A program made the translations under genes and the position numbers. From Cliona cf. orientalis (taxonomy: Eukaryota > Porifera > Demospongiae > Clionaida > Clionaidae), in contig OZ005689.1 of NCBI GenBank assembly GCA_963930775.1, positions 4,588,001 to 4,652,000 on the forward strand: a stretch of 64,000 nucleotides of DNA, in the 5' to 3' direction. Below, one piece after another: positions 17,345 through 56,546 of this stretch (within the stretch, counting starts at the first letter, position 1; each line of letters starts with the position of its first letter). Below the pieces are notes generated by a model. The model was not told the DNA's origin and ran no database searches. It saw nothing but the letters and a program-made list of their open reading frames with translations.

Positions 17345-17446
17345 TCCTCATTTGATTATCTAAAGATGAAAAGAGCAGCTGTGATTCAGTACCTGAATCT
17401 TCAATTGAATTAGAGATGACCTTCTCTGTTGCTGCTAGTGTAATGG
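17345..17446 (-). pseudogene. Relic of the 5' end of a membrane-family gene
   Basis: About 100 bases match the signal-proximal coding region of copies A, B and C on the same strand (for example AGAGCAGCTGTGATTCAGTA, then CTGAATCTTCA and GAGATGACCTTCTCTGTTGC). It is cut off on both sides and abuts a SINE-like sequence. It is evidence of a further, lost family copy next to copy A. Confidence 0.7.
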
Positions 17447-17449
17447 GTA

Positions 17450-17620
17450 CCAAGATTGTATACCCTTCCTACCCGCCACCTTGCTCCCATGGCTCAATTG
17501 GTAGTCTAAGAGCATTATGCCAGGGGATGTGAGTGTGTGGGTTCAAGTAACCAACAGTACAGCGCTGATATACCATAAATTAAATATAAATAGTAGTATC
17601 CATCCTGACTTTTTGTCTTA
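17450..17620 (+). repeat. tRNA-derived SINE-like copy downstream of copy A
   Basis: It starts GTATACCCTTCCTACC and carries GGCTCAATTGGTAG (A-box-like) and GTGTGGGTTCAAGTAACC (B-box-like). Related copies occur near 29625-29760 (with a good A box, GGTAGCTCAACTGGTAGAGC), truncated at 33785-33880 and internally deleted at 36940-37030. All lie just 3' of a family gene or relic, so they were copied along with the unit. Confidence 0.6.
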
Positions 17621-17736
17621 TATTGCATGAAATGTGTATGTTTCATAATGCATTTAACTAAATAAATGTTATCATGTCGATGTTGAAGTTTTGTACACAC
17701 TATTCATCACGTAATTTCAAAAACTATCACTACACG

Positions 17737-19689
17737 TTAATTGTTGTTGATATAAAAGCCCGAGAACATACTGTACCGTTGCAGTGTATAAACGTTGCTT
17801 GAATCAGCAACAGTTGTGCTAATAGTACGTAAGTTTTTACTGATCTTCACTAACAATGTTGTCACATGTGCCATAACTGAGCGTATACATAGTGAAGTTG
17901 GTTCAATCAGTGGCTGTGCTGCTGTTGGACTGTTGATGGTAAACTGCTGCTCTTTACTGGAAAAAATCACTGTTTTTAGGGAGATAATCTTACGCATTAT
18001 AAACTTTAAGCAAGTGCACTGTGATAGAGATCTACCTCCAAGGCATGTTGTTATTGTTTTGATGATCATTAAAGTGGTAAACACTAAAATAGGGATTATA
18101 AGTAGTATCCTTATTAGTAGCAGCATGTGTGCTCCAGATACAAAACTGTAATACAGGACTGCCAGATTAGAAAGTATCAGAATGTCCAAATAATTCATGT
18201 ACGCTCTCTTGTATGGCTTGGTAATTCCCACAATGAGGGCAATGGCAAAGAAAACTGTACCCGAGTAGTACCAATGGATAGATGCATGGTAAATACTGAA
18301 TGGCCGTACGATTGATTTGGTCAGGAAAGGCATAATTCTCAAAATGAAATAAAGACCTGAAAAGTATCTCATATCTCGTCCTCCATGTAGACCGTTTCTA
18401 TAGCAACCATAAACTTTCTCAGTGAAGATATTTAGAGCAATGGAATTGAGATGCCATTTTGACAGGCATGATCGAAATGCTCTAATTGGGTAAAGGATCA
18501 GCAGCAAGAGTGGTAAAATGGTACATACACAGAAAATGAGCACAGAAGGAATTGCAAACAAGAGATGGTATGTGCTTCCGTATGAAATGCTTTGATCAGC
18601 TACACACTGATAGGATGTGAAGTGATGTCCCGACAGATTAAAATTTTGAATTTCATCACGATCTAATAGTAACAGTGTCTGATATAGAATCTTACCACAT
18701 GATAAGAGAAGAAATGTAATGAACACGTCAATGATATCACTCTTTGTGTCCCAGCCTCTTTGAAGTCGAACAAAACATCTGTGGAATGGTCTCCACAGCC
18801 ACACTAGTGGTCTAAAATTATGACCATGTAGTTCGATGCAGATCCATGTCAAAAGTATCAAAAGTAGTGGATAAAGGGCGGAAATGTATCCAAGATAAGC
18901 TTCATGAATGAACTTAATTTTACTACTCAAACAATAAGGTGGTAAAAGATAATGACCAATGTCTAAATTAAATACTCTATAAAGTATCAGTGCAATTTTT
19001 ATGTCCAATCTGTGATCCAAATTATCTCTTGGAATTATCTTGTATAGCACTGGAGTATTGGTAGTAGTAAAATCAAATGTAACGACAATTATCTGGGCAT
19101 ACATGATAAAGCAGGGCATTGGAGCTGAAGTTACGCTGATTTGAAAAGCTAAGCAGATAATGTAGAATACTGTGATTGGCACAAACTTTAGAAATAGAAA
19201 AAGTGGAACTCCATATAAGGCATCAGTACAGTTGGCACATCTGTACCCAAATGAGGTCACTGCGGGGCCAAAACCATCGGTACACTCACTGCATAAATAC
19301 CCTTTTCTATTCAGTGGACCACACATGAAGTCGTTGAGCTGACTGAGATTTTGTGGCAACTGTAATTCATGATATCCATGATATTTAACCAATTGAAAAT
19401 ATGGACAATTGAAAATGGACAACGGTTTTGTTTCCTGATTGAAAGTTGCACAGTATTCATAATGCAATAGTAGTCCATGTCCACCAAGACCACAGCGAAG
19501 TGGGCTCATTTGATCACCTAAAGATGAGCAGAGCAGCTGTGATTCAGAACCTGAATCTTCAGTTGAATTAGAGATGACCTTTTCTGTTGATGCTATTGTG
19601 ATCACATTTGAACTGACGATGATCTTGTCTACTGCTGATATTGTGATCACTTCAATGATCAAGACTGTAAATAAGCATATAATATGCAT
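17737..19689 (-). CDS. Multipass membrane protein family, copy A
   Basis: The open frame has 650 codons. It has an N-terminal signal peptide, a Cys-rich ectodomain with CGPLNRKGYLCSEC and GYRCANC, then about nine hydrophobic segments. Intracellular-type conserved blocks are RPLVWLWRPFHRCFVRL, YGCYRNGLHGGRDMR and KPYKRAYMNYLD. I do not recognise the family by name; a receptor or channel-like role is only a guess. The ATG used by copies B and C has become ATT here, so translation would begin at the next Met, still before the signal peptide. After PTAAQPLIEPTS a small indel replaces the usual YGSCDN tail with about 50 unrelated residues. A TATA box lies at 19755-19765. Confidence 0.8.
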   Translation of the reverse strand: MHIICLFTVLIIEVITISAVDKIIVSSNVITIASTEKVISNSTEDSGSESQLLCSSLGDQMSPLRCGLGGHGLLLHYEYCATFNQETKPLSIFNCPYFQLVKYHGYHELQLPQNLSQLNDFMCGPLNRKGYLCSECTDGFGPAVTSFGYRCANCTDALYGVPLFLFLKFVPITVFYIICLAFQISVTSAPMPCFIMYAQIIVVTFDFTTTNTPVLYKIIPRDNLDHRLDIKIALILYRVFNLDIGHYLLPPYCLSSKIKFIHEAYLGYISALYPLLLILLTWICIELHGHNFRPLVWLWRPFHRCFVRLQRGWDTKSDIIDVFITFLLLSCGKILYQTLLLLDRDEIQNFNLSGHHFTSYQCVADQSISYGSTYHLLFAIPSVLIFCVCTILPLLLLILYPIRAFRSCLSKWHLNSIALNIFTEKVYGCYRNGLHGGRDMRYFSGLYFILRIMPFLTKSIVRPFSIYHASIHWYYSGTVFFAIALIVGITKPYKRAYMNYLDILILSNLAVLYYSFVSGAHMLLLIRILLIIPILVFTTLMIIKTITTCLGGRSLSQCTCLKFIMRKIISLKTVIFSSKEQQFTINSPTAAQPLIEPTSLCIRSVMAHVTTLLVKISKNLRTISTTVADSSNVYTLQRYSMFSGFYINNN

Positions 19690-19754
19690 TAAGTTTATTG
19701 TTTGTAGAATCTTATCCTTAATGTTTGAAATGTGTCTCTTGTCAATTGTATTCT

Positions 19755-19765
19755 CTTTTTATATA
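19755..19765 (-). promoter_or_regulatory. TATA box of copy A
   Basis: TATATAAAAAG on the minus strand lies about 66-76 bases upstream of the copy A ATG. The same motif at the same distance precedes copies B and C. Confidence 0.65.
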
Positions 19766-19951: not shown

Positions 19952-20404
19952 TGTAGTGACGCAAATGCAATCCCGACCTGATTGTGATATGCCGGTACGT
20001 ACGCCATTGTGATCGCTGGATGGTACGGATGGGAGCGGCTGGGAGGTCAGAGGATGGGTTGTGAAGGGTTAGTGTGGGTGGGGCTGGGAGGTCTGGAGAT
20101 GGGTTGTGAATGGTTAGCAAGGTTATAAGTCTCTACAATGTACATGTATACTATACGTGGACTGTATGAATGGGAGGGGCTGGGAGGTCTGGGATTGGGT
20201 TGCGAATGGTTACCAAGGTTAGTGTGGGAGGGGCAGGGAATAATGGCTGCCAGCAGCGAACGGTGGTGACACTGTCCGAGTCATGTGTGTGGAATGGAAT
20301 GGAGCGTGTTCAACTCTTGCTGTGCACTTTGACTTGTTTTTCCTGTCGATTTTTTCAAAATTTCGCAGTTTGCATTCGTGTTAGATTGCATTTGTGTCAT
20401 AACG
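19952..20404 (+). mobile_element. 453-bp inverted-repeat element R1, copy a
   Basis: The ends TGTAGTGACGCAAATGCAAT and (reverse complement of the right end) CGTTATGACACAAATGCAAT match at most positions, and TGTTT (19947-19951 and 20405-20409) flanks both sides. Two paralogous units lack the element and read GGGCTGTTTCAG without interruption (about 32195 and 38428), so these are empty sites. The interior holds degenerate repeats of GGGAGGGGCTGGGAGGTCTG. No coding sequence. Confidence 0.8.
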
Positions 20405-20409
20405 TGTTT

Positions 20410-21090
20410 CAGGTTGTATATATGCGAGGCTTTAAGCATAATATAATATTTGTGTACTATTATAGTCTCATTTGGCATCTTTTATTTGGATCGTTGCACT
20501 GCATGTAGTCTGATTCACATTTCTCAATGGGAATGCACTTTAATAACAATCAGCTTGCGCTTTCAAAGTTTACATGGATTAGATTTAGCATGGGACTCTC
20601 TCTTGCTTGCTTTCATTTATCTGGGGGTTGTAAACTGCTTACTACGTGTTCCATTAACGACATTGCACCTTTAATGTGGGTTCAATGCTAAGCAAAGTTG
20701 TTGTGTTGGTTGTGAATTTGGGGAAATCTCAGCAGTATAAACAAAATGAGGCAAACCTTAGTGGTGGACATACATGTGTGATAGTGGATGGAGGCCTTTA
20801 TTCATTTATTCATTCATTCTGTATGGATAGCAGCCAAACTATGCTTTTAGAGTACTGCAGCAGATCCTGATGGCTGCTGACCAGCTCTTTCACAGCAATA
20901 TGATAGTATAAAGAATTGCTTTCCCTCTTCTCCAAGTATGCAATGGTCAAATTTATTTATTTACATGCATACTCTAGGGCTAATGTTTATTTGAGATTCT
21001 ATAATATAATTGGAATATGTACTTACGACTGACTGGTTGACTTTCTGAACTGTGTTGGTGTATTCCACCTACACATGAATGTTAATTATA
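20410..21090 (+). repeat. Unit-specific segmental repeat following R1
   Basis: About 650 bases following R1 (from CAGGTTGTATATATGCGAGG) recur almost intact at 27471-28080 and 34691-35385, and degraded at 32200-32410 and 38437-39190. It includes CATTTCTCAATGGGAATGCA and AAATCTCAGCAGTATAAAC. Open frames in it are short and not shared, so I regard it as non-coding DNA of the duplicated unit. Confidence 0.65.
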
Positions 21091-21094
21091 AATA

Positions 21095-21342
21095 CTGTAT
21101 GGTGGGTAATTTTCGTTGTGTGCTAGTTTTCGTTGTTTTCGTGGTTGACTTGGCAGTCACGAAAGTTTTCCACCCACGAAAATTAATGCTTACCATGATA
21201 TGGTTATGTGAGTCCATGATGATGGGCATGCCATGGCCACAAACGTTATTGGCAGTGCGGCCAATACTTCCCATGGAGTCTTAACAAGCAACAGTAACCA
21301 TTATCATCCAGCTGATAGCATCTTCGACACTAATATTCTTCT
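21095..21342. mobile_element. MITE with ATTTTCGTGG ends, truncated copy
   Basis: The left end after TA reads CTGTATGGTGGGTAATTTTC, as in the full copies at 28678 and 35388. The right half is missing: similarity stops near 21342, where a CTCCTCGAGG...GGGGACAAGAC hairpin-like sequence and then a repeat of the flanking unit follow. Confidence 0.65.
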
Positions 21343-22381
21343 GTCTCCTCCTCGAGGGTGGTGTCTGGGGACAAGACTATGTTGATAGCAGCCAAACTGT
21401 ACTTTTAGAGCATCAGATCCTGATGGCCGCTGATTTAGCTCTTTCACAACACTATACGATAGCATAAATGAATGCTTCCCCTCCCCTCCAAGTGTGTAAG
21501 GGTCCAATTTATTTGTTCACATGAATGCTCTAGGACTAATGTGTTTATTTGAAATTCTATTGGAGTATGTACCAACAACTGACTGGCTGACTACGTTGGT
21601 GTATTCCATCTACGTATAGTTATTGTATGCATGTATGTACAAAGTTATGACCATTTACATGTTGATAGAAAATAAATGCCATGGGGTGTAATTATGATGA
21701 ATCCGATGGTGTAATCAATGAAGAAAATTCAGGGCCTCAATGAAGCCTTTCTGAGACTTGAAAATCCTTAAGTATGTAGAGTATCTGATGCCTGTATCAA
21801 GCGAATACTTTAAAGCTGAGTGCTACTTTCTCTGACGAATACTGCTGTCCAAAGTTCACACATTCTGATAATTGCTTATTTAGCATTATGAAACATACAC
21901 ATTACATGCATATAAGTACTACTGTTTACATGTATATTACAGTGTGAAAACTTGACCACATCCCCAGGTAGCTGCATAGTACTCATGGTGTATAATATTA
22001 TAGTAATAATATAGTGCAGACATAGTCTGCAAGCCACATCGCCTCAATAGCAGAGATGGAGTCCGAAACCGACTCTCGATCTCGATAGTGACAAGGTTCG
22101 ATGCTTCAATCATAGGAGATGAACTCGACAGTGCCGTACAGCTTCCAAACGTCAGCTTAGTCGCAGCATGGCACACAGCATGCGTACTATATATAGCTTT
22201 ATTTATCCACAGGATAACATCAGCCAAGATATCAGTATTAAATTTTTGTACACATTCATCACAAAATTTCAAAAGCTACCACTACAGTGTCACTTAAATT
22301 GTTGATATTAAAAAAAGCCGAGAATATGTAGTTCTGTTACAGTGTATAAAATTAGTAATTGTTGTGCTATGGAAGTTTTTG
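21343..22381. other. Spacer downstream of copy B, no supported gene
   Basis: It contains a second partial copy of the segmental repeat (about 21380-21650, beginning GATAGCAGCCAAACTG) and the conserved 3' flank of the family genes (about 22200-22381). Open frames here are short and unsupported. Confidence 0.5.
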
Positions 22382-24244
22382 CTAATCTTCACTAATAGTG
22401 TTGTCACATGAGCCATAACTGAGTGTAGTGAAAGTTGGTTCAATCAGTGGCTCTGCTGCTGTTGGACTATCGATGGTAAACTGCTGCTCTTTTTTACTGA
22501 AGAAAATCACTGTTTTCAGAAAGATAATCTTACGCATAATGAGCTTTAAGCAAGTGCACTGTGAAAGAGATCTACCTCCAAGGCATGTTGTTATTGTTTT
22601 GATGATCGTATAAGTGATAAACACTAAAACTGGGATTGCAAGTAGTGTCCTTATTAGTAGCAGTATGTTTACTCTAGATATGAAACTGTAATACAGGACT
22701 GCCAGGTTAGAAAGTATCATAATATCCAAATAGTTCATGTACGCTTTCTTGTATGGCTTTGTAATTCCCACAATAAGGGCAGTGACAAAGAAAACTGTAC
22801 CAGAGTAGAACCAATGGATAGTTGCATGCTGAATAGTAACAACAACTGATTTGATCAGGAAAGGCATAATTCTCAAAATGAAATAAAGACCTGAAAAGTA
22901 CCTCATATCTCGTCCTCCATGTAGACCGTTTCTATAGCAACCATAAACTTTCTCAGTGAAGATGTTTAGAGCAATGAAATTGAGATGCCATTTTGATAGG
23001 CATGATCGAAATGCTCTAGTTGGGTAAAGGATCAGCAGCAAGAGTGGTATAATGGTGCATACAAAGAAAATGAGAACAGAAGGAATTGCAAACAAGAGAT
23101 GGTATATGCTTCCGTAAGAAACACTTTGATCAGCTACACACTGATAAGATGTGAAGTGTTGTCCTGACAGATTAATGTTTAGAATTTCATCATGATTTAA
23201 CAGTAACAGTGTCTGATACAAAATCTTGCCGCATGACAGGAGAAGAAATGTAGTGAACACGTCAATGATGTCACTCTTTGTGTCCCAGCCTCTTCGAAGT
23301 CGAACAAAGCATCTGTGGAATGGTCTCCACAGCCACACTAGCGGTCTAAAATTGCGACCATGTAGTTCGATGCAAATCCATGTCAAAAGTATCAGTAGAG
23401 GTGGATAGAAGGCAGAAATGTATCTAAGATAAGCTTCATGAATGAACTTAATCTTACTACTCAAACAATAAGGTGGTAATAGATAATGACCAAAGTCTAA
23501 ATTAAACACTCTATAAAGTGTCAGTGCAAGTTTTATGTCCAATCTGTGATCCAAATTATCTCTTGGAATTATTTTATATAGCAATGGAGTATTAATTGTA
23601 TTAAAATCGAATGTAACGACAATAATCTGGGCATACATGATAAAGCAGGGCATTGGAGCTGAAGTTACGCTGATTTGAAAAGCTAAACAGATAATGTAGA
23701 ATACTGTGATTGGAGCAAACTCTAGACACAGAAAAAGTAGCACTCCATATAAGGCATCAGTACAGTTGGCACATCTGTACCCGAATGAGGTCACTGAGGG
23801 GCCAAAGCCATCGGCACACTCACTGCATACAAAACCTTTTCTATTCAGTGGACCACACATGAAGTCATTGAGCTGACTGAGATTTTGTGGCAACTGTATT
23901 TTACGAGATCCATATTTATTCAATTGGAAATATGGGCAGTTGAAAATGGACAACAGTTTTGTCTCCTCATTAAAAGTTGCACAGTATTCATAATGCAATT
24001 GTAGTCCACGTCCACCTTGACCACATTGAAGTGGGCCTATTTGATCATCTAAAGATGAACAGAGCAGCTGTGATTCAGTACCGTAATCTTTAGTTGAATT
24101 GGAGATGACGTTTTCTGTTGCTGCTAGTGTGATCATATTTGAACTGACGATGGTCTTGTCTACTGCTGATATTGTGATCACTTCAATTACCAAGACTGTA
24201 AATAAGCATAATATAATATGCATTAATTTTATTGTTTGTAGCAT
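22382..24244 (-). CDS. Multipass membrane protein family, copy B (intact)
   Basis: This is an uninterrupted frame of 620 codons and the best reference for the family in this array. The order is signal peptide (MHIILCLFTVLVIEVITISA), a Cys-containing ectodomain with many N-x-S/T sites, the block CGPLNRKGFVCSECADGFGP, GYRCANCTDA, the first hydrophobic segment (VLLFLCLEFAPITVFYIICL), further hydrophobic segments, RPLVWLWRPFHRCFVRLRRG, YGCYRNGLHGGRDMRYFSG, KPYKKAYMNYLD and a short tail with AAEPLIEPT and SYGSCDN. Copy A is its closest relative by eye. It is transcribed against the host dynein gene. Function unknown. Confidence 0.85.
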   Translation of the reverse strand: MLQTIKLMHIILCLFTVLVIEVITISAVDKTIVSSNMITLAATENVISNSTKDYGTESQLLCSSLDDQIGPLQCGQGGRGLQLHYEYCATFNEETKLLSIFNCPYFQLNKYGSRKIQLPQNLSQLNDFMCGPLNRKGFVCSECADGFGPSVTSFGYRCANCTDALYGVLLFLCLEFAPITVFYIICLAFQISVTSAPMPCFIMYAQIIVVTFDFNTINTPLLYKIIPRDNLDHRLDIKLALTLYRVFNLDFGHYLLPPYCLSSKIKFIHEAYLRYISAFYPPLLILLTWICIELHGRNFRPLVWLWRPFHRCFVRLRRGWDTKSDIIDVFTTFLLLSCGKILYQTLLLLNHDEILNINLSGQHFTSYQCVADQSVSYGSIYHLLFAIPSVLIFFVCTIIPLLLLILYPTRAFRSCLSKWHLNFIALNIFTEKVYGCYRNGLHGGRDMRYFSGLYFILRIMPFLIKSVVVTIQHATIHWFYSGTVFFVTALIVGITKPYKKAYMNYLDIMILSNLAVLYYSFISRVNILLLIRTLLAIPVLVFITYTIIKTITTCLGGRSLSQCTCLKLIMRKIIFLKTVIFFSKKEQQFTIDSPTAAEPLIEPTFTTLSYGSCDNTISED

Positions 24245-24299
24245 CTTATCACTCTTATGCTTAATGTTTGAAATGTGTCTCTTGTCAATTGTATTCTCT

Positions 24300-24308
24300 C
24301 TTTATATA
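24300..24308 (-). promoter_or_regulatory. TATA box of copy B
   Basis: TATATAAAG on the minus strand lies 56-64 bases upstream of the copy B ATG, in a stretch (ATGACACAGGGTATATAAAG) shared with copy A. Confidence 0.65.
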
Positions 24309-24574: not shown

Positions 24575-24688
24575 GTGATATATACATGTATCCTACCTCA
24601 TTGGTCAGCGCAGCGCCCAGTCCAAGTACTAGACTTTCTTAGATACCGAAGATAAGCTTAGCAACGGCAACTAGACCAAAATTTGAAA

Positions 24689-26256
24689 ATGTCGGAGATG
24701 GATGCTCAGACTTGTCCCTACGATCCGTTCTGTCTTGTGCTATGCGATTGGACCGACGGTCCAGGTCAACTGACTGCTACGCCACACCCAAACAACCCGC
24801 CCAATTTAGCCCCGCCCTCACCCGCTCCAACGATAGCTCAAGCAGCAGGCAGCCACACCCTCGATTTCAACGAGGTCGCCATTGGTTTACCACCCAGCCA
24901 CGAATGCTTTTCATCGTTTGTTGATGACGAGAAGCTAGCCGTTCTGTCCAAGGGAATGATTCCAACAAATACTGATAAAAGCACCAAGTGGGCTCTTTCT
25001 AATTTTGACGCTTGGAAGGATGCAAGAAACAAACGATATCTTGCTGATATGGTCCCAGACGACCTCTACATGTGCAATGACCCTGCTATTTTGAGTCTGC
25101 ATCTTTCCAGATTTGCCTTAGAAACTCGAAAGGTGAATGGAGAGCCATATCCACCTAAAACCATCCACCAGCTTTTATGTGGATTATTACGCTACATGAG
25201 GGATATCAGTCCGGGATGCCCAAACGTTTTAGACAAAAAGGACAGTAGATTCAAGAACTTTCATGTAACACTTGATTCACACTATCACAACCTTCATGCA
25301 AGTGGTTTGGGTAGGGAAGTAAAACATGCACGAGTTCTGAGTGAAGATGATGAAGAAAAGCTGTGGAAGAGTGGTGTTCTGGGTACTTCATCACCGCAAG
25401 CTTTACAGAATGCAGTGTTTTACACTGTTGGAAAAGTATTCAGTCTATGTGGTGGAGTGGAAATGCGATCTTTGTGTATCTCTCAAATCAAACGATTTCG
25501 GCAACCAGATAGATACGTCTACACAGAAAACGTGTCTAAGACCAACAATGGCACTTTCAAGAAACTACATGTTTCCAACAAGGTAGTTCCTGTATTTTCT
25601 TGCCCTCAAGTTGGTGAACGGTGTGCTATATACCTTCTAGATCTTTATCTGAGCAAGCTTCCAAACGAAGCGTTTGAACAAGATGTATTTTATGTTCGCC
25701 CACTACAGAACATACCACCTGATCCAGCGAACCATGGTACACCACCGTACCAGTGGGAAAGAACACCCTTGAAAGGAAGCTTGCCATCATTTGTGATCGT
25801 GCTAGTATTCAGGGGACAATCACAAACCACAGCTTACAATCAACATCCGCTACTCACATGTATAGGAGTGGAGTACCAGAGAAGGTCATACAGGAGAGAA
25901 CCGGCCACCGATCTCTAGAAGCTCTTCGGACTTATGAACGGTCTGACAGTCAACAACATCAAGCTGTATCCAACATCCTGTTGTCAAGCGGCAACAATTA
26001 CGCAGAGCAAAGGCACAGATCTAGAGTAGAGTGTCGCCATTCTAGCACAACATCAATGTCATTTCCTATGCCACAGTCAAACCATTTTGACCGTAGAGTG
26101 CAGCCTACTCCAATATCATTTGGAAACATGTACGGGTGCACAATAAATTTCAATGGAAGCACTCCTATCTATCAGTCTCCTGATGTACATGTACCATCAT
26201 CATCATCTTTCAATCTAACTGAAACAGAGTTTAGCGAGTTAGTTTCTGACTTTTAG
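24689..26256 (+). pseudogene. Crypton-like tyrosine recombinase (KIAA1958/DUF3504 type), frameshifted
   Basis: Two overlapping frames make one protein of about 520 residues, beginning MSEMDAQTCPYDPFC. The N-terminal half has the SAM-like core region (NGEPYPPKTIHQLLCGLLRY), and the catalytic half has the first Arg block GGVEMRSL and the C-terminal NHSL...GHRSLEALRTYER block with His and Tyr. A one-base loss near 25735-25745 shifts the frame between DPANHG and the expected WYTTVPVGKNTL. The second catalytic Arg of H-x-x-R is Gln (CAA, 25837-25839), consistent with CGA decaying at a CpG. I infer an inactive copy of a Crypton-type transposon, or a relic of a domesticated gene. It is the only nested gene in this part of the intron on the dynein strand. 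Confidence 0.8.
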
Positions 26257-31852: not shown

Positions 31853-31906
31853 CTTATCATTTTATTCTTAGTATTTGAAATGTGTCCCTTTTCAATGGCA
31901 TTCTCT

Positions 31907-31915: not shown

Positions 31916-31922
31916 CTCTGTT

Positions 31923-33783: not shown

Positions 33784-34059
33784 GGCTTCCATAAGTGTGT
33801 GGGTTCGACTCCCCTCAAGTAATCACAAGCATGCACAGTGTACACATACTGTAATATAAACAGTGGTACTTATATGCATGAAACATATATGTTTCATAAT
33901 GAGTAAGCCGTTGTCATATCAGTATTAAAATTTTGTACACACTATTTATCATGTAATTTCAAAAACTATCACTACACTTATATATATATAATTTAAAAAT
34001 CCGAGAATATGCAGTACTATTACAACATATAAATGCTGCTAGCAGCAGTTACTGTTGTG

Positions 34060-36455: not shown

Positions 36456-36479
36456 TATCTTGATACAGTGCCTTTAAGG

Positions 36480-42000: not shown

Positions 42001-42123
42001 AGTGAGCTCTAGACTTGTATCCAAGTGAGCTTGTAGCTGACTCTTTATAATTTCACAGTGAAAAGAAAATTGCGCGGGGGTGACGAAGGGAGGGATGCAC
42101 ATAGTGCTGTAGCAAACTGACAC

Positions 42124-44195
42124 ATTAGTTGATTATAATATTATGCATGCATGACTATGACTGCCAAAAATGGAGGAAACAAAGAGGAAATACTCCCTAA
42201 TTGAACTGCTTTCCAGAAGGGGTAATTATGCCCTTCACAATACATGTACATGCACACTGTGAAGACTTAGGTGGGTAGTGTCCACCATTTTGTCTCCCCT
42301 ATCACATCTTTCACTTCTTAGACTAGGACTCCAAACAAAGACCAAATGACAGAACAATTCTTCTACTTTTTGCTTGTTCAAGTCCTATAACCCGGAGATA
42401 TTCATGAGCTCCGCGGCGACTGCTTTTGTGCATGTTACTTGGGAAAGGGCATGTACATACCCAATACCACCTTTTGCTATTTACCGGTTTATGTGCAAGG
42501 ACAGCATATGTACATGGATGACTGTGCTGAATGCATACATGTACGTCACATAATATTATGACCATTACAGGAAATTACTAGCTGTCATGTAGCTGACTTA
42601 CATTTGCTAGTACATGTACGAGTTTGTGCAGCAATAAACATACAGTAGCTATGTACACAAGTCTTAGAATGGTGGAGGTGCATCAACCACACCTCACCTT
42701 GCAGCACCAGATTATAAAGGAGCCAGCGCTCAGAATATGCCAACTGACTCTACAGAAAGAGGTGGCACTGAATTGAAATAGGCCCACATGCAATAAAACA
42801 TATTATGTTATTATATTAGCTACTTACATACATTGAAGCTAATTCTTGATCAGATGAGATACTGAAATATTAGTATGGAAAAAAATGATTTTTCCTTGTT
42901 GGTTATGATTGTTTATGCGTGTATGTGCGAGTGTATAAGTGTGTGAGTACCGTATAGTGGGAAACTTTCGAGGGAGAAAATTTCCTATCACATTTTGACC
43001 ACTATTTCTACTTTACATGATTGTAGCTCTGCTATGGAATCTCCTAGAAAGCTCAAATTTAGGCTTTAGTAACTTCAATCTATCTGCTAGGGGTGAGCCA
43101 ACTTTTGGCTTTAACTGTCAAAGCATAGTATTACGAGAGCTAATTGAATTAAGCTAAAATTATATATCCCACCTAAGTATTATATCAGCCGGGGTATAAC
43201 TAGGATATTTCCCTCCCCGAGAGGTACAAGGGAAAATATGATCCATATTTCCCTCTCTCTGACTATTACTTTGGCCAATCAGAGTCATTGTATTAGTTCA
43301 CACAAGCAGTCACATCATCATGCCTACTATATTTGCGTGTGCATCAGCACTACTGATTGCACCATGCATGGTTGCATACAGTGACACTACACTGTGTACA
43401 ACATAGGCAGTTTACACAGATACGGAAACACGCGCACACTAATTGACACTAATCAGAAACCAATAATATTATTGGCTATCGCTCGATCTAGCAGTTCTAC
43501 CATGTGGCAAGTTCAACAGTGCAATTGCAAGTGTACTAGCTGCTAGTCTAAGTCTAGATGGGTAAATAACCATTGCCCGAGTTTGAAGAACGGTTCTTTT
43601 TTCGAAGCTACCCGACTGTCTTCTATTCTTGGAAAGTTGAAGTACTGGTTGATTCAACTAGCCATGGTTCCGTGACTCAAGCCATCCGTCATCGACTGTT
43701 TCTTTGCTGGTTTGTTTACTGTGCAACTCTCTTTCTGTTCAGAACTATTGTTACTAGGTTAGAACGGTTGTTGCTATGCATGTAGACTGTACTATTGTGC
43801 GCGTGACTTTTAGCCAATCAGATGGGATATTATATAATAGTTGCAGCACAGTTGCAAAACTGGAATAATCACGGTTCGTTTTCTACATGGGACTGCCACA
43901 TACACATATACTGTACGTAACACTGGATCAATCATCAGCTATTATAAGGTGTTTAGATATACATATGGTATAGTTGTACTACTGTGTATGTCCAGTCCTA
44001 CCCCACCACATACACATGATCTTTGCACACCCTCTACATTGAATAATATGGTATATACAGTCACATAAAAAATTTCATCCTACTCTGCTGTCTGATATTT
44101 ACAGTTACATTGCCTATAGTTACTGTGTAGAGTATATTATAAAACCAATACATTTCCTAATCTACATGTATTCAATGACACGGAGTTGCTGTAAT
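42124..44195. other. Intron spacer, no supported gene
   Basis: It holds the solo MITE end at 42950-42990 and a short TTTCCCTC...GAGGG inverted repeat near 43200-43260. Open frames at 43469-43785 and 43841-44068 show no domain, homology by eye or splice support. Confidence 0.5.
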
Positions 44196-46507
44196 TTAAT
44201 TATCGTCTGCTCCATAGCTGATGACTGTGGAAGTGGGTTGTATTAGTGGCTCTGCTGCTTTCTGACTTCCAACCAATGCATTTTCATCGTCCATAGTTGC
44301 AGCACCCAAGGCAGTGCCTCCAAGCCATGTTCGTGGAAGCTTCAAGCTGTTTCTGCACATTTTGTACAATAGTACAAATGTGGTATAGATTTTTTGAAAT
44401 GTAATAATCAGAAGAAACAGTATGATAGGTGCTGAAATTAGCATCCTTGTAATCATAATTGTACTGTTGTGCCATACTGTGGTCCATATAAAAGATAACA
44501 TTGCGAAGTAAAGGAGTAGAACTGCATCTAAAAAATTCATATAACACTTTTTATATGGTTTAACAAATGCTATGAAGAGAGAAATAGTGCAGAAGAGAGT
44601 GCCATACATAAACAATTTATTGAGATCTTTCCACAAATGAGAGAGCTTAGTAAGCAAATATACCGCTGGCCTTAGGAGAAAATAAAGTCCTGAAACACTC
44701 CTCATGTCTCGCCCTCCATCTAAACCGTTTCTGTAGCAACCATAAACTTTGTCAGTAAATGTATGCAAAGCACTCATATTGAGATTAAATTTTGATAAAC
44801 ATGATCGAAATGCTCTAATTGGAAATAGAATGAGCAGCAAGGGTGGTAAAATGTTCAATGTTGAAATAAATAAGGAAGGAATTACAAATGCAAGATGATA
44901 AGAGCCTCCATAAACAATGCTCGGATCAACTAGAAGTATACGTTCTTCAGTAATTCTCCCTGCTTCATTTATATTTGAAACAAGGTGAGTAACCAATATT
45001 AGCTCTGTTTGATATATCAATTTGTTGTAAGACAGAATAAAAAAGGTCGTGAATACATCAATGATATCACTCTTTGTGTCCCAGCTTCTTCGAAGTTGAA
45101 CAAAGCATCTATGGAATGGTCTCCACAGCTGCACTAGTGGTTTAAAGTTATGACCATGTAGCTCAACGCAGAACCAAGTCAAAAAGATCAGTAAGATAGG
45201 ATAAAAGGCTGTAACGTAGCCAAGAAATGCTAAATGAATTGGTTTTAGCTTGCTGCTTACACAGTATGGTGGTAATATATCATAATGCCAGAAATCTAAG
45301 TTAAACACTGCATAGAGATTAGCCATGATATGCATATCCAGCCTAAAGTTTAAATCTTTGGTAAGAAGCACTTTATCGATGTGCATATTACGGTTTGAGG
45401 TGAAGAATACGGAAATGAATTGGGAAAGCATGATGAAACAAGGCATGGGAGCTGAAGTAATGCTAATATGAAATACTAAAATAATGAAGTAGAGGATTGT
45501 AATTGGCGTAAGTTGAAGTACTAGAAAGAGTGGCACCCTATACCAGGCATCAGCGCATTTGATACACTTGTACCCAGATGAGGTCACTGAGGGACCAAAG
45601 CCATCGGCACACTCTCTGCACAAATGACCTTTTCTATTCAGTGGACCGCAGATATAGTTGTTGAGCTGACTGAGATTTCTAGGAAGTACTATTTGCTTCT
45701 GTGCTCTTATCTTGTGGCCATTTGGTTTACAATATGTGATTTCAAAAATGGATAGTAATTTTGTCTCATCACTATATGTCGCACAATATGGAAGGGTCAG
45801 GAGTGGTTGATGGTCTTTTAAGCAAGTGATTTGCTTGCATTTGAAGAGAGTAGAGTTGTAGCAGAGTGACATTGCTAAATATTGAGTGTTGTTCAGAGAA
45901 AGTTTAGTCACATTAGGAGAGCCTGTAATCTTCTTATCTGCATTTATTTGGAGATACAATTGTTACAGTATGTAGCACTACCAATTTAAAATGCAAGTAT
46001 AGGATACATGTATTGCCATATTGTGTAGTATATATTTATAAGTCGAAAATTTTTGCTGGACATACATTCCACCAAGCTTTGATGGAATAAATTGTCATCA
46101 ATGCAGTATAGGTTGCCACACCTTGACTTCTACATGTATGTGTATAGAACAAAAAATGATTGGTGGATAAGATTTTCGCCAATGATGCCAGGTGGCGAAA
46201 TTAACAAAAAATTTCTCCTGGTAAACATGCATTTCTAGCTGTATGATATCGCATACGTAATATTACATATTCACCAGGAGCTGCATACATACATGTAGTA
46301 TTATAGTTGTTTATAAGCTGCTAAATCTCAGACAGCTTATTCGAGCATGCTAAAATGGAGTAGCTAACCGTGTGACTGATTGATACCAAAGGTAGGATTC
46401 GTCTTCATCTTACTTGAAGCTGGGACATGATTAAAGTTCTTGTTCACTGCTGATAGTTGGTCCAATACGATGGCAAAAAGGAATAAATAGATGAGCATGT
46501 TAAACAT
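44196..46507 (-). CDS. Multipass membrane protein family, copy G (two exons)
   Basis: Exon 1 is 46507-46414 and exon 2 is 45937-44196, joined in phase 1 (TTCAA/GTAAGA to AAATGCAG/AT), giving 611 codons. Exon 1 supplies the signal peptide (MFNMLIYLFLFAIVLDQLSA) that the long exon lacks. Exon 2 has the family order: CGPLNRKGHLCRECADGFGP, GYKCIKC, hydrophobic segments, RPFHRCFVQLRRSWDTKSDI, YGCYRNGLDGGRDMRSVSG, KPYKKCYMNFLD and a tail with AAEPLIQPTSTVISYG. It is clearly more diverged than A-C and lies outside their repeat unit. The family's other copies here are single-exon, so the intron was gained here or lost in the others. Confidence 0.8.
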
Positions 46508-49704: not shown

Positions 49705-51588
49705 TTACTTTTCTTGAATGCCATAAGTTATAACAGTTGAAGTTGGTTGAAGTAGTCGCTGTGCTGATGTTGGAGTGTTTGCAGTGGAGTGATGAGTCGA
49801 ATCAGTTGGTATATTAAATCTGAAACAGTTACAGGATCTAAGAGAATCTGATGTATTGATACATTTATGACACCTGTGCAATCTAAATGTGTTATAGAAT
49901 TTTTGCATAGTTGTAATGATGAAGACTGTGATGGGTATTGCAATTAGTACTTGTGGAACTATTGGTGCATTGATCCTTAAAGACAGCGTATAGCACAGAA
50001 TCATGTAGTTAGAAAGTAAGAGCATATCTAAGTGATTCATATAAGCCTTTTGGTAGGGTTTACCTATTGTGATGGTTAATATGATGACAAAGAAAAGGGT
50101 TCCAATACCAAACAAAGGACTCACATGTAGGTACGACTCTATTTTTTGCAAAAATAAATAAATGGAGGATGCTATAGGTAGTAGAATAAGGTAGACACCA
50201 GAAAAGCTCCTCCAATCTCGGCCTCCATCCAAACCATTTCTGTAGCAACCATAAATTTTGTCCAGGAATACATTTATCCCAGCAAAGTTTAGGTGACACT
50301 TTAAAAGGCATATCCTAAAACTTGAAATTGGATAAAGAATTAGCATCAAAGTAGGCAGAATGTTAAATACAAATGAAATAAGTATCCCTGGGATAGCAAA
50401 GGAGAGGTGATATGCGCTTCCGATTTCAATACTTTGATCAACCATCGATACGTGTGTCAAAAAATAGTTTCCTGATAACTCAATATTCTTAATTGGCTTA
50501 CTGGTTATCAGAAGCAGTGTTTGATAAAACAGCTTGCTATAAGTCAAGAAGAAGAATGTAGTGAACACATCAATGATGTCACTCTTCGTATTCCAGCCTC
50601 TTCGAAGCCAAACAAAGTATTTGTGGAATGGTCTCCACAGCCACACTAGTGGTCTGAAGTTATGACCATGTAGTTCAACAAAGAGCCAAGTCAGAAAGAT
50701 CAATAGGATGGGATAAAATGCAGAGATGTAACCAAGAAAAGCTATATGGATAAATCTTAATTTACTGCTGATACAATACGGTGCTAGTGTATTCTGAACA
50801 GGAGCTAAATTAAATACCTGATAGAGTGAAAGGACTACCTTCGTATACAGTCTGACTTTCCAATCATCTTTAAGCAGTACGTGTTTCTCCTCGGCGTTTA
50901 GTATTGTGTGCCTAGGTTCAAAGGTAATTAATATGAGTTGGGCACACATAATTAAGCAAGGCATAGGTGGCGACGTGACTCTGATATGAAACACTAAGAT
51001 AATGAGGTATAAAAATGTTATTGGAAAGAGCTGTATAGAAACAAAGAGAGGCACCCCATACCATGCACCAGTGCAGTTGGCACACTTGTACCCGAATGAG
51101 GTCACTGAGGGGCCAAAGCCATCGGCACACTCACTGCATACAAGACCTTTTCTATTCAGTGGACCACACATGTAGTCATTGAGCTGACTGAGATTCCTTG
51201 GAACTAGCACTGAGTCAGACTCTTTGCTTGTATAGTTATAGCTATTTGATTGAAAGAAGGTACACTCAAGAATTGATATCAGTTTAGTGTAGTTATTATA
51301 TGTTGCGCAATGTCCTGCTCTCAGTAGAGGTTGGCTTTGGTGGCAAGTGAGAATATCCCTGTATCGGTATGAGCAAAGCTCTTGTGAATCTTGAATTGAT
51401 GCATTTCTTTCACTATTCGAGGGGAGAATGGTCACCTGTTTCAATGAAGTACGTGTTGACAATGAGTCCTCCACTGCCGTTGTTGAATGGCATATCCGTG
51501 TAGCCAGAACGATCATTAAGACAGTACCAATGGCCATGCAAATATATGACTTGTTAATCTCACAATAGAACTCTAGAAGCAGCTGCAC
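49705..51588 (-). CDS. Multipass membrane protein family, copy H (intact)
   Basis: One open frame of 627 codons. Its N-terminal hydrophobic stretch (MAIGTVLMIVLATRICHSTT, Met 18) is the probable signal peptide. The ectodomain has several N-x-S/T sites and CGPLNRKGLVCSECADGFGP with GYKCANCTGA. The membrane part preserves RPLVWLWRPFHKYFVWLRRG, YGCYRNGLDGGRDWRSFSG, KPYQKAYMNHLD and the tail SAQRLLQPTSTVITYG. It is more diverged from A-C than they are from each other. No repeat unit accompanies it, so it belongs to an older layer of the array. Confidence 0.85.
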   Translation of the reverse strand: MQLLLEFYCEINKSYICMAIGTVLMIVLATRICHSTTAVEDSLSTRTSLKQVTILPSNSERNASIQDSQELCSYRYRDILTCHQSQPLLRAGHCATYNNYTKLISILECTFFQSNSYNYTSKESDSVLVPRNLSQLNDYMCGPLNRKGLVCSECADGFGPSVTSFGYKCANCTGAWYGVPLFVSIQLFPITFLYLIILVFHIRVTSPPMPCLIMCAQLILITFEPRHTILNAEEKHVLLKDDWKVRLYTKVVLSLYQVFNLAPVQNTLAPYCISSKLRFIHIAFLGYISAFYPILLIFLTWLFVELHGHNFRPLVWLWRPFHKYFVWLRRGWNTKSDIIDVFTTFFFLTYSKLFYQTLLLITSKPIKNIELSGNYFLTHVSMVDQSIEIGSAYHLSFAIPGILISFVFNILPTLMLILYPISSFRICLLKCHLNFAGINVFLDKIYGCYRNGLDGGRDWRSFSGVYLILLPIASSIYLFLQKIESYLHVSPLFGIGTLFFVIILTITIGKPYQKAYMNHLDMLLLSNYMILCYTLSLRINAPIVPQVLIAIPITVFIITTMQKFYNTFRLHRCHKCINTSDSLRSCNCFRFNIPTDSTHHSTANTPTSAQRLLQPTSTVITYGIQEK

Positions 51589-52305
51589 TCTTAGATTTTT
51601 AAGTTAGTGGCTTGATGTGTGCATGGTCGACGTACAAATTTAATAGTTAAGGATTGTTTATTTATTCATTCATCATTAATTTACGTAATAAGCAGTAAAA
51701 GCAACAGAGCTTAATATGTGTACTACATAATCATAATAAGCATACATTTATATGAGCGTTTACTGAATCAATGAAAACATGTTGCAAATGATTAAGATAA
51801 TGCATTTAACACCATAGTACTTTTGCGACCATGCAAGCTTGGAATGCACTAATTCGAAAACTGAAATTAGAGAATATTATATTATTGTACCGCAAACTCA
51901 AATTTAAAGTTATCTTCAATTTTAGTCTTATTATTATAGTATATGGTACATGTAAAGATGCATTTAAAAATGGCTAACGTTTAGATAGAACATGCTGTTT
52001 GTAGTTGTTATCGCATGTTAATTTAAATTGAATCCAGTACAACCTCTATGTGTATACTCAATTTTTATTGCATGTGATGCTTTTAATTACCTCAGCTTTA
52101 GCAGTTTATAGGAAAGTAGTGGTGTATAACAATGTACTTTTACTGTAAGGGGAGTGTTATCTAGCTTTCACTGCAATAACTTTCACTGTGGTCCAAAGCA
52201 AATATGTTAATTGCCTATACAGCACGCTTTAACAATAATATTATACAAAAATAACTACTTGTTTGTGACAGAATGTACATGTATGTTTTAATATTATGAT
52301 GCATT
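51589..52305. other. Spacer between copies H and I
   Basis: AT-rich DNA without a supported gene. The part from about 51840 on is the 3' flank of copy I and is duplicated at 48880-49300. Confidence 0.55.
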
Positions 52306-54025
52306 TTAGTCCTTGCTTTCGGCTCTGTAGTTGCTGAATATTGGTTGAATTAATGGGTCTACTTCTGTTTGATTGTCAGCTTGTGTAACCTTGAAATAAG
52401 TACAGCACTTTTGTAGTAAGTGCGGTTTGCACATGTTATAGCCTTTTCTCAACACTATAGCGATAATTAAGATGACAATTGGGATATTCTTTGCTAATAG
52501 TAGTGTATCATTTCCTGAAGATATTACAAAAAGCAGTATAGTGATGTGAGATAGTATGGCAATATCCCAGTAATTCATGTAAGCCTTGCGGTATGGCTTG
52601 GCTATGGCAACAGCGAGTGTTGCAAAGAACAGCAAAGTGCCTACAGCAAACCACTGATTGATATGCAAAAATGACTTCATAAGGTGAGACAACACTGCAC
52701 ATAAGTATGCTGTGATTCTTAAAACAAAATAGAGACCAGAAAAGCTTCTCATATCTCGTCCTCCATTCAAACCATCTTTGTAACAGCTGTATACTTTGTC
52801 CATAAAAATGTGTATGGCAACAAAGTTTATATGACACTTTGATAGGAATGACCTGAACCTAAAGGATTAGCAGCAGGGGTGGTAGAATAATGCATAAAAT
52901 GGCTATTAGTGTCACCAGAACTCCCTGAGTAAGTAGATGTGTACTTCGAATAGAAATGCTCAGATCTAATTATGAATGGTAAGTTGTGAAGTAGCTTCCT
53001 GATTCGTTAAAGTTTTTGACACCTTTACTACCAACCAAAAGGAATGTCTGATACAATATTTTATTGTACGATAAAAGGAAAAGTGTAGTAAACACATTAA
53101 TGATATCGCTCTTTATGTTCCAGCCTCTTCGAAGTCGAACAAAGCATCTGTGGAATGGTCTCCACAGCCACACTAGTGGTCTAAAATTACGACCATGTAG
53201 TTCAACACAGAGCCAAGTCAGAAAAATTAGTGCAATGGGATAGAAGGCAGCGATATAACTCAAGAGAACTAAGTTGAAGAAATTTAGGTTTTCACTCAAA
53301 CAGTATGGTTGTAAGAAATCTACAAGATGGTCAAAAGAGAAGTTGAAAATACCATAGAGCATAAGCATAATTTTGATATCCAATGTGTGTTTCCAAGGGT
53401 CTATGAAGGAGGTATAGTTGTCAGGATCGAATGAAACGACTATGAATTGGGCATACATGATGAAGCAAGGCATAGGGGCTGTAAGTACCTTAATTTGAAA
53501 GATTAAAACAATGAAATAGAATACTGTAATTGGGGCAAATGTGATAAACAGGAAGAGTGGTACCCCATACCAGGTACCGGTACAGCTGACACACCTGTGC
53601 CTAAATAAGGTCACTGAGGGGCCAAAGCCATCAGCACACTCACTGCATAAATACCCTTTTCTATTAAGTGGACTACACATGTAGTCATTGAGGTGGCAGA
53701 GATTTCTAGGTAGCAGTGTATGCTTAGAGCTTGTGATATTATACCTTTTTGGTTCAAAGTATCGACATGAACTCACGGATAATAATTTTGTGTCCTCATT
53801 GAATGTTGCACAGTGGGCATAGTTTAGTCCTGGTCCACTTGGAGAGCAAGAAGCACTTGTACTTTGATTCTGAGCAGAGCATCTGTGAACATCGATTCCC
53901 CTGCAGGGCGGTTGTGGTACTATTAGATGAGAGAGCAAATTTCTCATGTGCCGCTTTCGTAACACTAGGCTGAATGATCATGATAGCCAAATAATAGTGA
54001 ACAATAGGTTTGTAAGATGAACCAT
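52306..54025 (-). pseudogene. Multipass membrane protein family, copy I (three lesions)
   Basis: The family frame can be followed from ATG 54025 (MVHLTNLLFTIIWLS) to 52306. It is broken by a TGA at codon 16 inside the signal peptide (53978-53980), a TAA at 52970-52972 and a frameshift near 52860 with loss of a few codons of the YPIRAF block. The preserved parts include SPLNRKGYLCSECADGFGPS, RPLVWLWRPFHRCFVRLRRG, YSCYKDGLNGGRDMRSFSG and KPYRKAYMNYWD. CGPLN has become CSPLN, and the tail lacks the usual PTST..YG. It lies head-to-head with copy J, about 0.8 kb apart. Confidence 0.8.
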
Positions 54026-54811
54026 ATTTATTCTTGCTATAACTTCTAGTCAACTTTCTCTAATAGTTAGTAATGAAGAGTCACTAGCTGACAGTGCAGA
54101 TGATATTCAATTACAAATCTTCAGCTCAATTGATTTCAGAATCATGCATATTAGCATTCTTTGCATTTTTTTCAATGTCTAAACTATAGTCAAGGTTTGC
54201 ATGCACGATGCAGTAATATGTGTGTTTTGATACTCACAAGTGTGAGTGAAATACACAGAGGCTATACAAAAGCAGCTGTGAAGTTGAGATAGAACATGTA
54301 TTGATAGTTTAAGCTGACTCTTTATCCTCTAATTGTACTATTGACTGTGGCACTGATGGAGTATTACATGTAGGTGCTGAGCTCAGAAGTGCTTCATTGT
54401 TGGAAGGTCCTCTTCTTACATTTCGGCTCTGTGAAATTTCTTGATTGCACATTGCATAACATAACTATATATTTGTTTGTTAGTGTCAAGCCGAAGTAGC
54501 TACTGGTTTTATTTGAACCCAAGCTTGATGTTTCAATAAAACAGCTTTCTTTGTGCATGCAAACTTGTATTTCACTGGTGAAGCTGATCTGATATGCTTC
54601 TGTTTACGGGACAATATCCACATTTACATATTGAAAATAATTGCAACTTTCTCACTGTCGTACATGGTTTGTAAACAAATATCTTGTTTCCTACCATTTC
54701 AATAAAGCTTAAGTTTGCACACTGATCATGCAAAACTCACAGTATACAAACTATAGCAAAAACAGTAAGAGCCATCACGGTTACTGCCCTTCTACCAGCT
54801 GGAAGGTTAGA

Positions 54812-56546
54812 ATGATTATTAAGTTGGTTACCTTTTTGCTACATTTGTACTCACTGTTAATTATCAATTCTGTTGCTGAGGCGCTGACCGAAGAGCTGAA
54901 GTACTCATCACCTGACAGTTTAGACTCTGCACTTTCTCTTAACAAGTTGCTCTGCTCAACGGATTTGAATGAAGGACAAGGATATGTTGATTGTTCTCAA
55001 AATGGGACATTTTTGACGCCTGGCAATTGTGCGACTTACGACGAAGACAAGGAAGTGCTCTCTGTCTTTTTATGTCCAGAAGTTCAACCGAATGTGATAG
55101 TCGGTGGATATGTAAAACTTCCAAGTAATCTCAGTCAGCTCAATGACAGCGTGTGTGGTCTGTTGAATAGAAAAGGTCATATGTGCAGCGAGTGTGCTGA
55201 TGGCTTTGGCTTCTCAGTGACTTCATCTAGGTACTTGTGTGTTGAATGTACTGATGCCTGGTATAGGGTACCACTTTTCATCGTCCTTGAATTTGCACCA
55301 GTCACAATATTCTACCTAATTGTGCTAGTTTTTCACATCAGGATTACATCAGCTCCCATACCTTGCTTCATCATGTATGCTCAATTGATTGTTATTTCCT
55401 TCAATGTGTCTTCAACTCTGTTCCATGCTTTCACCAGTGACGGGAAACTCAGATTGGACGTGACGATAATGCTCATTTTGTATGGATTATTCAATTTGGA
55501 TTTTAGTCATCATAATGTATTACCACCATACTGTGTAAGCAGAAAACTTAAGCCAATTCACTTGAGTCTTATAAACTACGTGTCAGTATTTTATCCTCTC
55601 CTGCTTATCTTTCTGACCTGGCTCTTTGTCGAACTACATGATCGTAACTTAAGACCACTGGTGTGGCTGTGGAGACCATTCCACAGATGCTTTATTCGAC
55701 TTCGAAGAGGCTGGAACACAAAGAGGGACTTAATCGATGTCTTTAATACCTTTTTCTTTCTATCTTATGATCAGTTAATGTTTCAGGCATCGATGCTACT
55801 TAATACTAGAACAGTTTTACGAATTGACAAATCTGGGAGACCATACATTATGTACCACTCTATCCTTGATTCTGAAAATATTCACGAACATACATACTAC
55901 TTTTATTAATTATTCCATCCTTTCTCATTCCGTTTCTCTTTAACTTTCTACCTCCATTATTATTGGTTTTCTACCCGATAAAAGTATTCCAGTCTTGCCT
56001 ATCGAAGTGTCATCTCAACTCACTCGCTCTAAATATATTTATTGAAAAAATGCAAGGCTGTTACAGAAATGGTTTAGATGGTGGAAGAGATATGAGGAGC
56101 TTCTCTGGCCTCTATTTCTTCCTAAGAATGGTAGTGTTTATTGTTGTGTATGTAGTCCAGAGTATCATGTATCTGAGTGGTATTCTGCCAGTGTAGTCTT
56201 GCTTATTGCCACGCTTACACTGGCACTTGTTCAGCCGTACAAGAAACCTTTTATGAACTATCTGGACGTCTTGTTGCTTTCCGTCCTTACGATACAGTGT
56301 TTTACTTTGCCCTTAAAGACTACATGGTCAATTACGATTTTCAGGGCACTGTTTACTGTCCCGTTTGTGATGGTAGTTCTATTTGCTATCTGGAGAAATT
56401 TTAAAGCTCTAGCTAAGTGGTGCCTAATAAGAAGGCCACCACCCAATATCGAAGTATCCCAGATCTCTGCTGTTAATTCTCCACCAGGATTACAGTCAAT
56501 AGCGCGGCCAATACTAGGTTATGGCACTATAAATCAATTGATTTAA
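54812..56546 (+). pseudogene. Multipass membrane protein family, copy J (plus strand, two frameshifts)
   Basis: This is the only family copy on the dynein strand. From MIIKLVTFLLHLYSLLIINS (signal peptide; an in-frame Met at 54728 is less likely) the frame runs through CGLLNRKGHMCSECADGFGF, RPLVWLWRPFHRCFIRLRRG and NTKRDLIDVF to about 55900. It then shifts by one base before IIPSFLIPFLFNFLPPLLLV, continues through QGCYRNGLDGGRDMRSFSG, shifts again near 56185, and ends QPYKKPFMNYLDVLLLSV...LGYGTINQLI. Both shifts restore homologous sequence immediately, so the copy was lost recently or carries assembly errors. Whether cells splice around them cannot be told from sequence. Confidence 0.75.

Follow-up and report, generated by a model that had tools for sequence, protein, structure and literature searches.

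What family of membrane proteins is encoded again and again in one stretch of the genome of the sponge Cliona cf. orientalis, and what might it do for the animal? The stretch analyzed here, 64,000 nucleotides in length and referred to below as the window, carries several copies of a multipass protein with a cysteine-rich ectodomain, which a sequence-only reading had described as a birth-and-death array of an unnamed family.

Copies in the window and across the genome

Searches of the window by tblastn with copies A, B, G and H, combined with a nucleotide self-comparison, recovered the named copies, all within positions 17349-56525, confirming that the array is real. The division into four open and three broken copies likewise held. 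On the reverse strand, copy A (17737-19758, first methionine at 19689) has an open frame that is lost in the tail past PLIEPTS, copy B (22382-24301) encodes 620 amino acids counted from its first methionine at 24244, and copy H (49705-51603) is open with its first methionine at 51537. The main open frame of copy G (44196-45962, reverse strand) contains no signal peptide; a methionine and a signal-peptide-like stretch are found in a first exon predicted from sequence (46414-46507, reverse strand), which a frame-keeping intron of 476 nt (46413-45938, GTAAGA...TGCAG) would join to a predicted second exon starting at 45937. G is probably a two-exon gene. Copy C (29984-31861, reverse strand) is broken by a single in-frame TAA (30722-30724) separating a 379-residue from a 245-residue frame, and these two parts share 87% and 82% identity with B. 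Copy I (52309-53977, reverse strand) consists of a 335-residue frame followed by a frame change and stops, and copy J (54713-56525), broken by two frame changes, lies on the forward strand, opposite to the other copies.

At least four truncated relics had also been proposed, a count that stands if flank-type pieces are included and falls short for coding relics, of which there are three. All are on the reverse strand. Both methods located the coding relics, one from the ectodomain (17349-17444) and two from the tail with 3' flank (33916-34247 and 37200-37377), while self-comparison located two flank-only pieces, one holding 3' flanking DNA plus the stretch beneath the out-of-frame tail of A (32438-32649) and the other only 5' flanking DNA (38214-38369). 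Dispersed repeats lie between the array copies. An intergenic repeat (19955-21347) was considered as the duplicating unit and rejected, as its middle is local to this array and its ends are dispersed repeats; among the 48 matches listed for it, none fell in the C14 array.

The cluster begins outside the window, with five further members at C1:4,549-4,569 kb, and the array as a whole accounts for a single cluster within a much bigger family. Three protein searches of the genome yielded at least 99 loci, with all matches at E ≤3e-91 except for one fragment (3.5e-20), and the addition of motif matches brought the total to approximately 142 loci on 15 contigs of the 217-Mb genome; clusters of at least three account for 89 of these. 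The WRPFH pattern matched the genome 66 times compared to 0 for its reversed control, and GCY(R/K)NG 36 times compared to 0 for its control. Pattern stretches in viral contigs (58 and 5) and prokaryote contigs (63) included none confirmed as relatives. Similar unnamed proteins presumably exist in Amphimedon. The genome also has 10 wnt-domain matches, at three loci on C4, C8 and C19, as befits an animal, Wnt being specific to animals.

A family of this size could consist mostly of decaying, non-functional copies spread by repeats, as the broken copies C, I and J, the relics, the dispersed repeats and the in-match stops at 16 of the 99 loci might suggest. We consider this highly improbable, as the matches at the remaining 83 loci contain no stop, overall dN/dS lies between 0.26 and 0.42 in all five sets examined, and a signal-peptide-like stretch opens 40 of the 42 frames. 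The evidence supports the description of a multipass family, with about nine helices per protein, whose array evolves by birth and death.

Predicted topology and tail motifs

A typical member comprises a signal peptide, approximately 130 divergent residues, a block of five cysteines and nine predicted membrane helices, and it ends in a short tail of 22-68 residues. The mean hydropathy profile of 42 members shows nine peaks past the signal peptide, and a reading as G protein-coupled receptors was dropped because nine peaks were seen rather than seven and because no 7tm Pfam family was matched in 30 members at E ≤1. The GPCR tyrosine kinases of sponges, along with further sponge GPCR families (PMC12716839, PMC4302439), resemble the present family in being polytopic candidate receptors with no identified ligand. 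By the same descriptions, those receptors span the membrane seven times and the GPCR tyrosine kinases end in a C-terminal kinase, which sets the nine-span, short-tailed family apart.

Charge and glycosylation motifs favor the predicted topology in part. The inward loops are rich in basic residues (K+R 7.1 versus D+E 1.3 between helices 3 and 4; 7.9 versus 3.6 between helices 5 and 6), and NxS/T motifs occur at 2.4 per 100 residues in the ectodomain and at 0 in loop 3-4. Against it, the short loop 1-2 contains 1.9 per 100 residues, and loop 2-3 just 0.16. In 24 nonredundant tails, PL[LI] was present in 12 (maximum 4 in 2000 shuffles) and YG in 13 (shuffle maximum 6), motifs resembling endosomal sorting signals. 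The strict acidic dileucine [DE]xxxL[LI] was found in just 7 of the 24 (shuffle mean 0.85, maximum 6), and generic YxxPhi motifs scarcely exceeded the shuffles.

Relatives of the membrane domain

The sequence-only reading had recognized no family for these proteins, and this was borne out to the extent that profile searches placed them in no well-characterized one. No convincing Pfam match was obtained with the four window copies or subsequently with 30 members, two proteins had no match in NCBIfam, and searches of PDB sequences were no more convincing, with no match at all for the 30-member profile. For B and A1 the top PDB match was an EGF module of thrombomodulin, with none for A2; the cysteines of the block are spaced much as in EGF and laminin-EGF modules, but the match is not significant (E 0.39-2.9).

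The closest relationship lies elsewhere. The DUF7630 (PF24633) profile scored A, B and G at 12.9-15.9 bits, below the curated cut-off of 27, with H not listed, and it was listed for 11 of 30 members at E ≤1 (best 0.003). Chlam_PMP (PF02415) had no match in the window copies or the 30 members. Three other loci of the same genome, which are long single frames in arrays, carry Chlam_PMP repeats above the cut-off (L062 and L063) or below it (L061), and in them a DUF7630-like cysteine block is followed by a polytopic domain homologous to that of the window family. Alignment of the 30-member profile to L062 by hhalign covered 371 columns at E 5.7e-32, profile E-values were 9.2e-11 for L063 and 1.3e-7 for L061 (membrane part only), and blastp between the family member L027 and L062 gave E 7e-28. 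Searches of the PDB by sequence with L062 and L063 returned chance-level matches only. The long proteins (1,266 and 1,313 residues, L063 running beyond the fetched piece) differ in their long repeat ectodomains, where the window family has approximately 130 residues, and L062 has no PL[LI] close to its end. A genome search with a 19-position Chlam_PMP model gave just two matches; as its control also matched in E. coli, it is of little use for estimating the number of PMP-type genes.

Because the cysteine block and membrane domain are common to the long PMP-type proteins, the nine-span family is, on these alignments, a short-ectodomain branch of an unstudied DUF7630/PMP-repeat membrane superfamily, and in this respect it does have recognizable kin. 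A literature search among openly available journal papers found no paper on DUF7630 (PF24633), and no title or abstract opening found there concerned the nine-span family.

These searches bear on whether the proteins are ion channels, with a nine-span, channel-like pore under the control of the ectodomain, conceivably in endolysosomes, and the conserved inward blocks serving as gating parts. Nine helices with conserved inward blocks would suit a receptor and a pore protein equally, helix 4 holds conserved polar residues (K, Q), and the KPYK..N.LD block may resemble fungal TRP-like proteins. Among 30 members, however, no Pfam family of TRP or other channels was matched at E ≤1 apart from Tweety in a single member (E 0.0017), and neither a TRP structure sequence nor any other PDB entry matched the profile. 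We regard a channel as unlikely. Structure models of B (built with 8 window sequences, pLDDT 40.7) and of the membrane core (11 window pieces, pLDDT 42.6) were too poor to use, which leaves some probability with a channel and with a transporter.

Rates of evolution and the candidate recognition role

Across six pairs, dN/dS was 0.13 for both the inward loops and the cysteine block, compared to 0.33 for the ectodomain and 0.39 for the outward loops (Fisher P versus inward loops 0.0006 and 0.0001, respectively). The ectodomain ahead of CGPLN had been singled out as the most divergent part; outward segments do evolve faster than inward ones, but the extracellular loops and tail are equally divergent. 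Maximum likelihood (IQ-TREE) on the A/B/C14 set gave 0.74 for the ectodomain, with outward (0.36) and inward (0.32) loops scarcely differing. Values above 1 were confined to small segments, namely ECL4+TM9 (5.29) and ECL3 (1.68) between A and B, each with a single synonymous change, ECL4+TM9 in C14 (1.16, from non-independent pairs) and ECL2 between L010 and L012 (1.03). No value above 1 rested on independent, well-filled counts, and the divergence looks relaxed or mild, with no positive selection demonstrated.

The membrane helices are relaxed as well (0.30, six pairs), and such mild constraint in a polytopic protein of large copy number would also fit a transporter or a lipid- or ion-handling protein whose copies multiplied to raise dose or widen the range of substrates. 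Such a protein would not usually have a signal peptide followed by a cysteine-rich ectodomain, nor relatives with long PMP-repeat ectodomains, and no transporter Pfam family appeared beyond one chance-level match, making this reading quite improbable.

Outward parts more variable than inward ones are what would be expected of recognition receptors, a putative function, and we tentatively favor, at somewhat short of an even chance, internalized recognition receptors as the best reading. The outward side of such receptors would bind environmental ligands, be they microbes, food particles or other cells, and the near-invariant inward blocks might contact one shared partner or make a common gate. 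Routing of the protein to endosomes or lysosomes may depend on the PL[LI] and YG motifs of the tail. The repertoire would be renewed as genes duplicate in tandem, spread between chromosomes and decay into pseudogenes, and by descent the family is a short-ectodomain branch of the DUF7630 membrane superfamily, whose longer members bear PMP-type repeats on the same chassis. A bolder proposal, which we hold to be somewhat improbable, is that short divergent or long PMP-type ectodomains on one signaling and internalizing nine-span chassis make up the largest uncatalogued recognition system of the sponge, with some 140 genes or more, and that an animal lacking both nerves and adaptive immunity relies on them as its main receptors for engulfment and for sensing microbes, food or self.

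At least one sponge receptor inventory, comprising TLR-like, NLR, SRCR, CTLD and GPCR classes, was built by Pfam domain (PMC8242945). Because no Pfam match to the nine-span family exceeded a cut-off where cut-offs were shown, a family of approximately 140 loci would escape such a survey. The present work supplies genes identified by name for testing, together with their conserved blocks and tail motifs, and if these proteins are receptors, a large share of the means by which such an animal distinguishes microbes, food and self would be uncatalogued.

Copies in the window and across the genome

Protein and nucleotide self-searches of the window recovered the positions of the four open copies (A, B, G and H), the three broken copies (C, I and J) and the relics described in the sequence-only reading. 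This array belongs to a 12-locus cluster at C1:4,549-4,643 kb, C1 being the contig that holds the window, which spans C1:4,588,001-4,652,000. Identity to B is 84% for A, 87% and 82% for the two parts of C, 57% for I, 51% for G, 50% for H and 48% for J, which lies on the strand opposite to the other copies. Copy C carries only one in-frame TAA, and copy A loses its frame after PLIEPTS. In A (about 17737-17900) and in L008, a family member on contig C14, the usual tail is replaced through a frame change near PLIEPT or PVIEPT, giving other C-termini there. The main frame of G has no signal peptide; a predicted first exon (46414-46507, minus strand) reads as one and joins G in frame across a predicted 476-nt intron (45938-46413, minus strand) with GTAAGA...TGCAG ends. 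This intron would directly follow the signal-peptide exon, at a point where A, B and H are uninterrupted.

Protein searches of the 217-Mb genome (149 contigs) yielded at least 69 matches with B as the query (69 of 1,239 first-look candidates scored), at least 75 with family member L027 (74 of 1,026) and at least 76 with family member L020 (75 of 1,444), all lower bounds because a fraction of the candidates was scored. Merging loci with starts within 1 kb gave at least 99 (98 if a gene split at C15:5,218-5,219 kb is treated as one locus), and 16 of these have stops inside the match. Two motif patterns added 43 candidate loci, counted on the motif match, for a total of at least about 142 on 15 contigs; of these, 89 belong to clusters with three or more members and 33 stand alone. 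Three Wnt loci mark the genome as that of an animal, probably a sponge.

In a 46-row tree, whose root joins two long branches flagged as unsafe by the tool, A, B and C form a clade with five C14 copies (support 100/100), within which A, B and C group together (84/73), as do the five C14 copies (97/89). All window copies and the C14 copies make up a clade of 12 (98/95). From these groupings, the C1 and C14 arrays, on different chromosomes, derive from a recent shared source, and each continued to duplicate thereafter. In the intergenic unit near A-C the middle is local, and the ends consist of dispersed repeats; a dispersed-repeat piece of about 250 bp (21090-21347) has matches on many of the genome's contigs.

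Between B and C lies a 418-aa open frame (24662-25915, plus strand) matching DUF3504 (E 1e-24) and QRICH1 (1.4e-6), which we take to be of the tyrosine-recombinase type of Crypton elements. Other frames in the window are a 544-aa Roc-COR-like protein (4735-6366, minus strand; COR-A, E 9e-8, slightly below cut-off), a 415-aa frame that weakly matches dynein heavy chain N1 (12174-13418, plus strand; E 9.5e-5, below cut-off), and frames of 371 aa (2285-3397, plus strand) and 355 aa (41068-42132, minus strand) with no Pfam match at E 0.01.

Protein architecture and relatives

Of the 60 fetched loci, 42 supplied distinct open frames 540 aa or more in length; seven were dropped for shorter frames (L003, L037, L047, L051, L052, L054 and L056) and 11 were left out as repeating proteins already in the set. 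A signal-peptide-like hydrophobic 12-mer lies near the start of 40 of the 42, the exceptions being G and L017. Counted from the Met of B, the ectodomain holds four conserved cysteines (62, 74, 88 and 103), followed by the five-cysteine block (130, 140, 143, 158 and 161). The roughly nine hydrophobic segments first noticed by eye correspond to nine peaks, near 179, 207, 285, 338, 396, 459, 486, 512 and 539; another, at 248, is borderline and was excluded. All 30 aligned members keep Cys260, which lies between helices 2 and 3; as it brings the nine ectodomain cysteines to ten, a disulfide linking the ectodomain to this loop is plausible. The predominance of basic residues in loops 3-4 and 5-6, together with N-glycosylation motifs that are most frequent in the ectodomain (2.4 per 100 aa) and also occur in loop 4-5 (1.4 per 100 aa), fits a predicted N-out, C-in topology. 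Against it, short loop 1-2, expected inside, has 1.9 motifs per 100 aa, and loop 2-3, expected outside, has 0.16.

The family had gone unrecognised from the sequence, and Pfam likewise returned nothing over cut-off for A, B, G and H. Below cut-off, the cysteine block of A, B and G matches DUF7630 (E 0.015-0.12), and the matches of H are confined to zinc-ribbon and sperm-protein models (E 0.03-0.6). Across 30 members, in a run displaying cut-offs for the first member only, DUF7630 was listed for 11 (best E 0.003), zinc_ribbon_6 for five (0.003), Zn_ribbon_10 for four (0.0019) and Tweety for one (E 0.0017). No paper on DUF7630 was found in the literature searched. The available sections of work on GPCRs of Amphimedon (PMC4302439), of choanoflagellates and relatives (PMC12716839, noting GPCR-TK and GPCR-PIPK in sponges) and of amoebae (PMC10445921), and on Halichondria receptors catalogued by Pfam domain (PMC8242945), describe no comparable nine-span family.

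A DUF7630 profile search of the genome gave at least 32 matches (150 of 812 candidates scored); among those listed, many fall within open frames roughly 1,000-1,900 aa long, with clusters on C7, C16, C2 and C18. Three such proteins were examined: L061 (C7; 1,266 aa), L062 (C16; 1,313 aa) and L063 (C2; extending past the end of the fetched piece). Their DUF7630 scores are over cut-off in the genome search, and hmmscan puts them at 23.3-24.7 bits, below its cut-off of 27; Chlam_PMP repeats are over cut-off in L062 and L063 and below it in L061. Among the matches listed, L061-type genes recur every 7-15 kb or so on C7:2.28-2.40 Mb. A profile of the 30 members matches L062 over 371 columns covering cysteine block and membrane domain (E 5.7e-32), L063 over 363 columns (E 9.2e-11) and L061 over 217 columns of the membrane part only (E 1.3e-7). 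These long proteins resemble the window family in their DUF7630-like block and membrane domain and differ in length and in their PMP-type repeats; the profile matches indicate that the two groups share, at the sequence level, one chassis bearing unlike ectodomains.

Selection, tail motifs and possible function

The ectodomain had been expected to diverge most. Pooled over six close pairs, one from each clade, dN/dS comes to 0.13 in both the inward loops and the cysteine block, 0.30 in the helices, 0.33 in the ectodomain, 0.39 in the outward loops and 0.41 in the tail; the ectodomain does exceed the inward loops (Fisher P 0.0006), but so do the outward loops (0.0001) and the tail (0.0013). Maximum likelihood estimates for the A/B/C14 and C15 sets, respectively, are 0.74 and 0.38 (ectodomain), 0.20 and 0.20 (cysteine block), 0.36 and 0.45 (outward loops), 0.37 and 0.42 (helices), 0.32 and 0.29 (inward loops) and 0.77 and 0.66 (tail). 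By these values outward and inward loops contrast clearly when the pairs are pooled and weakly in the A/B/C14 fit. In some sets individual segments exceed 1, on few or non-independent changes, and neither these, the pooled pairs nor the two likelihood fits support positive selection. The family could be a channel, which we consider unlikely, or a transporter, which we consider quite improbable.

The tails (22-68 residues) of 24 members sharing less than 70% identity were compared with shuffles and have little in common beyond PL[LI], present in 12 (shuffle mean 0.46, maximum 4), and YG, in 13 (mean 1.33, maximum 6). A strict acidic dileucine occurs in seven tails (mean 0.85, maximum 6) and YGx-hydrophobic also in seven (mean 0.29, maximum 3); generic YxxPhi, in 11, barely exceeds chance (P 0.04). 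C-terminal acidic stretches with dileucines are present in L061 and L063 and absent from L062. Dileucine and YG-type tail motifs bind trafficking adaptors in other proteins, and by analogy those of the window family may do so. The best reading of the family, offered tentatively and at somewhat short of even confidence, is that of an internalised recognition receptor whose inward face is conserved.
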